Shown here one piece after another: positions 41,907-42,315 of a DNA stretch of 64,000 bases. Position 1 is the stretch's first letter, and every line of letters starts with the position of its first letter. Made by a program: the position numbers and the translations under genes. The notes under the pieces are model-generated. The model saw nothing but the letters and a program-made list of their open reading frames with translations. It had not been told where the DNA came from and did no database searches. Origin of the DNA: Sulfurimicrobium lacus (lineage in GTDB: Bacteria > Pseudomonadota > Gammaproteobacteria > Burkholderiales > Sulfuricellaceae); assembly GCF_011764585.1 (NCBI RefSeq), contig NZ_AP022853.1, positions 2,091,501-2,155,500 on the forward strand, in the 5' to 3' direction.

Positions 41907-42315
41907 GCCACAGAGAGCACAGAGAAAGACATGGCAGATGAAATAACCGAGAAAGTAATCGGCGCGGCTATTGAAGTGCACAAAACCTTGGGGCCGGGCT
42001 TATTGGAATCTGTTTACGAAGAGGCGCTTTGCCATGAATTCGGACTCAGAACGATTGGATTTCAAAGACAACTTTCCGTTGATGTTCATTACAAGGATCA
42101 TGTGATTGGTGGCCAGCGCCTTGATTTGCTGGTCGAGAATGAAGTGGTAGTCGAAATAAAATCATTGCGAAGTCTGCCTGAAATGGCGATGGCTCAAGTG
42201 CTTTCCTATTTGAAAGCAACTGGCCTGAAGCGCGGTTTGATAGTCAATTTTGGTGAGAAGCAGTTGATCAATGGAATCAAACGCATTTCTCTGTGATCTC
42301 TGTGTCCTCTGTGGC
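41907..42315 (+). mobile_element. CACAGAG-bounded element carrying a GxxExxY gene (copy B)
   Basis: The left arm at 41907-41924 is GCCACAGAG-AG-CACAGAG. The right arm at 42289-42315 is three CTCTGTG heptads ending GGC. The two are inverted. The single gene begins 6 bp after the left arm, and its stop codon (42294-42296) lies inside the right arm, so the element is only arms plus gene, 409 bp. It starts on the base after the rarA stop and ends 17 bp before the serS ATG, and so splits a rarA-serS unit without breaking either gene. Copies A and C have the same arms without the gene. Confidence 0.8.
41931..42296 (+). CDS. GxxExxY protein (PD-(D/E)XK-nuclease-like)
   Basis: Protein of 121 residues of the GxxExxY family, named for the motif seen as Gly23-LL-Glu26-SV-Tyr29. 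The core also shows Asp65 and Glu75-Ile-Lys77 (LDLLVENEVVVEIKS), the pattern of PD-(D/E)XK nucleases. No activity is known for the family. Base composition is lower in GC than rarA and serS on either side. The last codons (RISL and the stop) are encoded by the right-arm repeat, which ties gene and repeat together. Confidence 0.88.
   Translation: MADEITEKVIGAAIEVHKTLGPGLLESVYEEALCHEFGLRTIGFQRQLSVDVHYKDHVIGGQRLDLLVENEVVVEIKSLRSLPEMAMAQVLSYLKATGLKRGLIVNFGEKQLINGIKRISL

Follow-up and report, generated by a model that had tools for sequence, protein, structure and literature searches.

What is a single small gene, wrapped in inverted arrays of one short word, doing between rarA and serS of Sulfurimicrobium lacus, and does it move? 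In the window, i.e., the whole stretch of 64,000 nucleotides that was analysed, the unit occupies 409 bp (41907–42315). Its left arm (41907–41924, + strand; GCCACAGAGAGCACAGAG) consists of GC and two CACAGAG heptads with a 9-bp period (heptads at 41909–41924) and lies directly 3' of the rarA stop codon (41904–41906). The right arm (42289–42315, − strand; CTCTGTGATCTCTGTGTCCTCTGTGGC) has three CACAGAG heptads with the same period (42289–42313). The sole gene between them (41931–42296, + strand) encodes a GxxExxY protein of 121 aa from the PD-(D/E)XK nuclease superfamily, and its TGA stop codon (42294–42296) overlaps the innermost heptad of the right arm. The original prediction had described two heptads on the left and three on the right, a gene start 6 bp after the left arm, a stop codon within the right arm and a position between the rarA stop and the serS ribosome site, and the coordinates (rarA stop 41906, serS start 42333) agree with all of this to the base. 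The unit has terminal inverted repeats, as insertion sequences and MITEs do.

The repeats are not a matter of chance. With up to 3 mismatches, the two-heptad pattern CACAGAGNNCACAGAG matches the window 16 times, whereas shuffled sequence gave 5.1 matches on average and never more than 12. Eleven of the 16 are exact, and every one of these falls within the gene unit or one of two gene-less copies. The host genome (3.83 Mb, one contig) contains 69 forward and 66 reverse matches with at most 1 mismatch, and the reversed-pattern control gave 0. A search of the unit against Rfam returned no match at E 1. Elsewhere in the window, an ORF at 45535–45640 (+ strand), starting with LYLAVVLDMFSLQIIGWSM, resembles by eye an IS3-type integrase remnant, and the neighbouring ORF at 45745–46863 (− strand) resembles, also by eye, a Fic-domain protein.

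The gene product is a GxxExxY protein, as predicted, with matches to TIGR04256 (E 1.8e-40; 137.9 bits vs a cut-off of 35) and PF13366 (E 3.3e-40; 137.5 bits vs a cut-off of 22) above both curated cut-offs. Among 50 sequences, E26, D65, and K77 do not vary and E75, Q89, and Y93 hardly do, as expected of a Cas4/RecB-type PD-(D/E)XK nuclease. The nearest solved folds of the AlphaFold2 model (mean pLDDT 93.9) in Foldseek are Sulfolobus SSO0001 (a Cas4 protein), human MGME1, AdnA, and lambda exonuclease. The best of them, SSO0001 (prob 0.99, E 2.4e-3), is a weak fold match, and no Foldseek match reached E ≤0.001. The sequence search of solved structures gave no match at E 1, and PADLOC returned weak Cas4 matches alone (E 0.0012 and 0.012). 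Besides these sub-threshold Cas4 matches, the protein matches GxxExxY and PD-(D/E)XK families only, and no known strand-transfer transposase was found in the 409-bp unit, whose single protein is GxxExxY. The modelled core fold and the D and E-x-K residues place it in the PD-(D/E)XK superfamily as a putative nuclease. Between the units of the host (G000) and its relative G006, the dN/dS of the gene is 0.137; serS has 0.074, and the final 300 codons of rarA 0.040. Judged by these ratios, the gene is maintained by purifying selection. To our knowledge, GxxExxY and "four helix bundle" genes are widespread and lack an established function. GxxExxY had no match at E 1e-5 in 50,697 phage records, 0 matches in PHROGs, and one partial match in IMG/VR, and carriage of the gene by phages was rejected on these results; matches occurred in 7 of 72,556 plasmid records. 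In PMC8934634, the name GxxExxY appears a single time, attached to a gene next to a reverse transcriptase.

Arms around the GxxExxY gene are a family rule in many phylum-level groups. A scan of GTDB contigs gave at least 579 relatives of the query, the best 80 of which were kept (~18 phylum-level groups by a manual count of record titles). In a motif-free inverted-repeat test, 44 of 79 loci exceeded the 99% quantile of 1600 same-locus control windows; the flank of the remaining locus was too short. Tandem self-matching was raised most at lag 9 (10.3 vs 8.3; 94 loci, 470 controls), lags 8 and 10 were up by 1.4 and 1.3, and the other lags from 5 to 13 differed by at most 0.7. A chain search for the word CRCNRRN at a spacing of 8–11 bp, reading inward from both ends, detected arrays on both sides of the gene in 55 of 94 loci and in 2 of 940 control windows. 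At least one flank had an array in 79 of the 94 loci and 96 of the 940 windows; 24 loci had an array on one side alone and 15 on neither. When the reading direction was reversed, 9 of the 94 loci had arrays on both sides and 22 on a single side (31 with at least one), partly owing to whole gene-less pairs that adjoin some genes. Since CRCNRRN was chosen on the 94 loci, the test was repeated on 29 new loci, a non-random sample of the best-scoring ones from 274 class genomes. Both sides carried arrays in 19 of 29 (controls, 1/290) and at least one side in 27 of 29 (controls, 34/290). In the host family (22 genomes), 16 GxxExxY genes were found; the chain test shows 15 of them armed on both sides, and the right arm of the 16th (L016) was seen by eye further out. 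The original prediction had named as its refutation that GxxExxY genes of relatives mostly lack such arms, and in the host family this is not the case. However, CACAGAG is one among many words used by the family, and words vary even among the genes inside one genome (CGCAGAT, CACGAAA, and CACGGGG in G007).

The words and their spacings follow the protein. On a quick tree of 96 GxxExxY proteins, made from few columns, with many forks open and 79 of 96 rows labelled, letter 2 of the word changed 14 times compared to a shuffle mean of 25.7, letter 7 changed 6 times compared to 18.9, and the outer spacing 18 times compared to 30.8; for each of the three, 0 of 500 shuffles were as low as observed. 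The protein of the window clusters with five others, all with CACAGAG at spacing 9. Spacings are also mirrored between the arms: among the loci with at least three words in each arm (n = 39), the first two spacings are equal between arms in 37, compared to a shuffle mean of 9.4 and maximum of 18, and left-arm spacings are unequal in 17, e.g., 8 then 9, or 9 then 10.

In an alignment of 64 host arms (31 gene-less copies and the gene copy), the outermost heptad is exact by construction, and the copies were first found with a two-heptad pattern. The third heptad, which the anchoring does not require, is 88–94% conserved per column and holds 1.27–1.66 bits, compared to 0.27–0.43 bits in the preceding second spacer, which is near random; the first spacer varies less, with 88% and 64% A. 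Left and right spacers of an element agree at 60 of 128 positions against 62.9 expected, i.e., without pairing; the spacers are unmatched across the arms, and therefore the words are what is preserved, and not base-pairing of the arms. Simple slippage is a disfavoured origin for the arrays, given conserved inner words next to a variable second spacer and spacings that are unequal yet mirrored. Sequence comparison favours reading the arms as protein-binding arrays rather than RNA stems, and recognition of the arms by the GxxExxY protein is well supported by the patterns above.

Gene-less copies with the same arms are numerous in the host. Two had been predicted in the window, and both are present; they are not the only ones, with at least 31 genome-wide. 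Copy A (9189–9345, outer limits approximate, no strand assigned) has arms at 9209–9233 and 9303–9327, and copy C (62263–62427, outer limits approximate, no strand assigned) has arms at 62285–62309 and 62385–62409; the outer ends of both are weak. The found pairs span 9209–9327 and 62285–62409. All 31 fetched copies have both arms, a GCCACAGAG tip, and 48–137 bp from outer heptad to outer heptad. Beyond ~22 bp outside the arms, there is no conservation (62 gene-less ends and 2 gene-copy ends), and an outer end of ~20 bp is present in the gene-less copies and absent from the gene copy. A repeated segment of ~160 bp can be delimited from copy L154, to which copy C is 85% identical. It matches 89 times in G000 and 86 times in G006, and no other genus member exceeds 6 matches; within this segment, the gene-less copies have related interiors. 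The check that the gene-less copies are intergenic is a rough one: some frame is open through the copy and 60 bp on each side in 11 of the 31. The GxxExxY gene gave no blastn match at E 1 against the 31 gene-less copies, and the best tblastn match had E 1.9. The proposal that copies A and C are simple derivatives of the gene copy fails on this point, and descent of A, C, and the other gene-less copies from it by deletion was rejected. By eye, L153 alone resembles the gene copy beyond the arm, over ~9 bases.

Two arrangements of the arms in relatives deserve mention. At L189 (G017:C20), two gene-less copies lie 943 bp apart with identical flanks, which suggests a duplicated stretch. At L203 (G011:C54:119832-119892), seven CACAGAG heptads run in one direction, with no inverse arm within 1.4 kb.

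Gene-less copies with a matching word tend to be abundant where the gene has that word, with exceptions. Twenty-nine class genomes with a newly fetched gene were compared, one locus being scored in each, though some carry several genes. The eight genomes with a CACAGAG-type gene, one of which (L230) was typed on its right arm alone, had 60, 15, 0, 18, 19, 62, 40, and 6 CACAGAG pair matches, whereas the 21 with another word or no clear word (two genomes) had 0–2 and, in one case, 11 (Mann-Whitney p 1.1e-4). The count of 0 in the 9-bp pattern belongs to L217, whose CACAGAG gene has arms with a spacing of 8. At least 10 matches were present in 14 of 274 genomes, and a GxxExxY gene was found in 8 of these 14 compared to 34 of the 260 others (Fisher p 2.4e-4). 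No GxxExxY gene was found in the other six arm-rich genomes (G078, G103, G148, G199, G215, and G261) or in G017 and G020 of the host family, both arm-rich. Pair matches without the gene reach 74 + 92 in G148, 31 + 31 in G103, 39 + 27 in G261, 47 + 43 in G017, and 36 + 41 in G020 (79% complete). The gene has been lost there, was missed, or is not needed, and these arm-rich genomes are the weak point of the model that we propose below.

Site occupancy differs among relatives. Of the 22 family genomes, 20 had a serS match, and in these the rarA-serS gap was read by eye, with GxxExxY genes and the absence of S23 genes checked by tblastn. G000 and G006 contain the GxxExxY unit; G003 and G005 contain gene-less hairpins with a 7-bp period, and G004 a decayed one; G013 has a gene-less CGCAAAGGA pair; and a CACAGAG right-arm remnant lies beside other repeats in G012 and G021. 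Seven genomes (G001, G007, G010, G011, G014, G017, and G018) have short gaps of ~4–21 bp, and the remaining five have different sequence upstream of serS. The original prediction had asked whether rarA-serS is uninterrupted in relatives and had treated gene and arms as one insertion-like unit; empty, filled, and differently filled junctions were all encountered, and this variation among relatives is in line with it.

The other gap compared precedes pilC and follows a pilB-like ATPase (gene names by reading); 12 of 18 loci were read there. S23 genes fill it in G000, G003, G006, and G019, with an S23 fragment in G001, and a GxxExxY unit with CACGGGG arms fills it in G004 and G007. The gap is empty (1–8 bp) in G002, G005, and G010; G017 has another hairpin and G008 another upstream sequence. 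Empty sites, as looked for around insertion sequences and MITEs, were found at both gaps among species-level relatives. No empty site for copy L154 was found in other genus members, where the matches cover the repeat alone, without flanks. Unrelated hairpin repeats, such as GTAGGATGGGTTGAGGCGC and GGTGCGAATTCATGCGCAC, also lie upstream of serS or pilC at L109, L111, L114, and L255. Taken with the copy families, the compared junctions support mobility of the unit.

Evidence for target duplications is suggestive only. The sample of 42 copies (31 from G000, ten from G017, and the gene copy) was anchored on the outer end. In 5 of the 27 copies whose ends are clear, the duplication was 5 bp or longer, compared to 1.9% of mismatched pairs, a weak signal; in 10 of the 27, it was 4 bp or longer, compared to 8.8%. 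Over all 42 copies, the same lengths occurred in 5 (vs 1.5%) and 10 (vs 5.6%). The gene copy itself has no target duplication. Without anchoring, in 43 rows with one copy pair of identical flanks counted twice, the longest common substring averaged 5.0 bp compared to 4.5 bp in swapped pairs and reached at least 6 bp in 33% compared to 14%.

A second family has the same arm design. S23/four-helix-bundle genes (TIGR02436) are present in 54 of 274 class genomes, and 27 of 31 such loci (L011, L012, and L120–L148) are flanked by inverted arms that exceed the 99% quantile of 930 controls. Their self-matching stands out at lag 7 alone (mean 13.0 vs 7.6), and the words are different in nearly every locus. 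The relation between word and protein similarity is weak (Mantel r 0.19 over 27 loci, equalled or exceeded by 15 of 2000 permutations). We know of no catalysis by the S23 four-helix bundle. PMC10053308 describes the S23 family as resembling Avd of diversity-generating retroelements.

We propose, with moderate confidence, that the locus is a minimal mobile unit, in which a Cas4/RecB-like nuclease gene lies between inverted arrays that are read by its own protein, which mobilises the unit. An oligomer of the GxxExxY protein would bind both arrays in mirror symmetry, and its nuclease site would nick or cut at the outer ends, the target, or both. The segment, released or copied, would then join a new intergenic site with a duplication of ~5 bp, and gene-less copies would be mobilised by the GxxExxY protein in trans. 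Catalysis of the movement by this protein is what we infer; the joining step is probably left to the repair or replication machinery of the host, since hydrolysis of DNA is what PD-(D/E)XK enzymes do and we know of no strand transfer by them.

The arms might instead be operators, bound by the protein to control its own gene, with the gene-less copies as regulon or leftover sites and no protein-driven mobility. Covariation, mirrored spacing, and conserved words indicate recognition rather than movement, and by a rough ORF test 12 of the 31 gene-less copies have divergent neighbours, a position in which regulators bind. However, the gene-less copies share a ~160 bp segment with related interiors, relatives have the same site empty or filled by something else, and an operator protein would not need the conserved active-site set D65, E75, and K77; we therefore regard simple operators as unlikely. 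Comparable doubts attach to the idea that another enzyme moves the arrays in trans, as RAYT does with REPINs, and that GxxExxY and S23 are passengers or arm-binding accessories. Arm letters and spacing follow the protein clade by clade, which is not expected of a mere passenger, and arm abundance tracks the type of resident gene, so that an external enzyme is improbable, even though two protein families with no relation to each other share the arm design and occur at the same site, no catalysis is known for the S23 four-helix bundle, and several arm-rich genomes lack a GxxExxY gene.

Readings based on hairpins or stems are less probable still. A unit acting at the RNA level, with the arms as an RNA stem and the gene in its loop, like S23 in the intervening sequences of 23S rRNA, would suit the position of the gene copies, whose upstream neighbour is co-directional in 72 of the 79 cases that could be scored (17 of 96 could not), and the likeness of S23 proteins to retroelement Avd, as described in PMC10053308. 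The gene that follows is co-directional in 67 of 89. The RNA-level unit is a long shot given that the spacers are non-complementary across the arms and that the gene-less copies show no preference for transcribed gaps in the rough ORF test (12 divergent, 5 convergent, and 14 tandem neighbour pairs). It is scarcely credible that the arms are hairpins of an ordinary kind, REP-like or terminators, placed beside a small gene by accident: although the gene-less copies look intergenic and could fold, intergenic repeat hairpins are common, and other hairpin repeats fill both gaps in some relatives, the arms are rare at unrelated positions of the same loci (2/940 and 1/290), the spacers are unpaired between arms, the word type tracks the protein, and Rfam gives no match.

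If the protein-read mobile unit is the right reading, some of the smallest gene-bearing mobile elements have no known transposase, and scattered intergenic repeats gain an origin. If the arms are what the proteins read, both the GxxExxY and S23 families gain a testable biochemical role, and the covariation offers dozens of natural protein-word pairs for deriving a recognition code. More tentatively, and with the balance somewhat against it, both families could belong to an unrecognised superclass of "array-armed" elements, each with one gene between mirror arrays that its protein reads and gene-less pairs spreading in trans. Two independent protein families would have converged on this design, GxxExxY (CRCNRRN at 8–11 bp) and S23/Avd-like proteins (many words, all of 7 bp), and the heptamer repeats of cyanobacteria, Xanthomonas, and Beggiatoaceae would be their footprints.

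Cyanobacterial STRR are heptameric intergenic repeats. Like the S23 arms here, STRR, GGGAATC, and TAACTGA are 7-bp intergenic tandem words. PMC4692102 reports GGGAATC heptamers in Xanthomonas, with 70–75 convergent pairs per genome and generally without mobile-element association, and PMC4679880 reports TAACTGA heptamers in Beggiatoaceae; "four helix" and "intervening" are absent from the main texts of both. A PCR primer containing the arm word appears in PMC3090145. Among the open-access PMC papers listed, no link of arms or repeats to GxxExxY or S23 genes was found.

Several known systems resemble the unit in part. In the fold and in the E...D...ExK...QxxxY-type residues, the protein is like Cas4/RecB-type nucleases. 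TnsA and Rpn tie PD-(D/E)XK nucleases to mobility or recombination. Unlike Cas4, TnsA, and Rpn, GxxExxY is a stand-alone protein of 121 aa that has no Cas or Tns partner and is framed by its own arrays. The terminal inverted repeats and gene-less copies of ~160 bp recall MITEs, as would the weakly indicated target duplication of ~5 bp; in contrast to MITEs and their DDE transposons, the gene copy has no DDE transposase and the gene-less copies have no gene remains. The REPIN/RAYT system is a small single-gene locus with inverted copies of a short word around it, whose gene-less hairpins elsewhere depend on the gene in trans, and the unit shares with it a single gene framed by an inverted short word and many gene-less copies. 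However, the enzyme there is a Y1/HUH TnpA_REP and here a PD-(D/E)XK GxxExxY protein, and the arms here are multi-unit arrays with fixed spacing, whereas a REPIN is one palindrome. The word here is CRCNRRN/CACAGAG, while REP palindromes are GTAG/CGTC-tagged, as the title of PMC3733652 has it. Because it has no HUH or DDE enzyme and no REP tag, the unit is a member of neither REPIN/RAYT nor MITE/transposase pairs, and by analogy it would work as they do.
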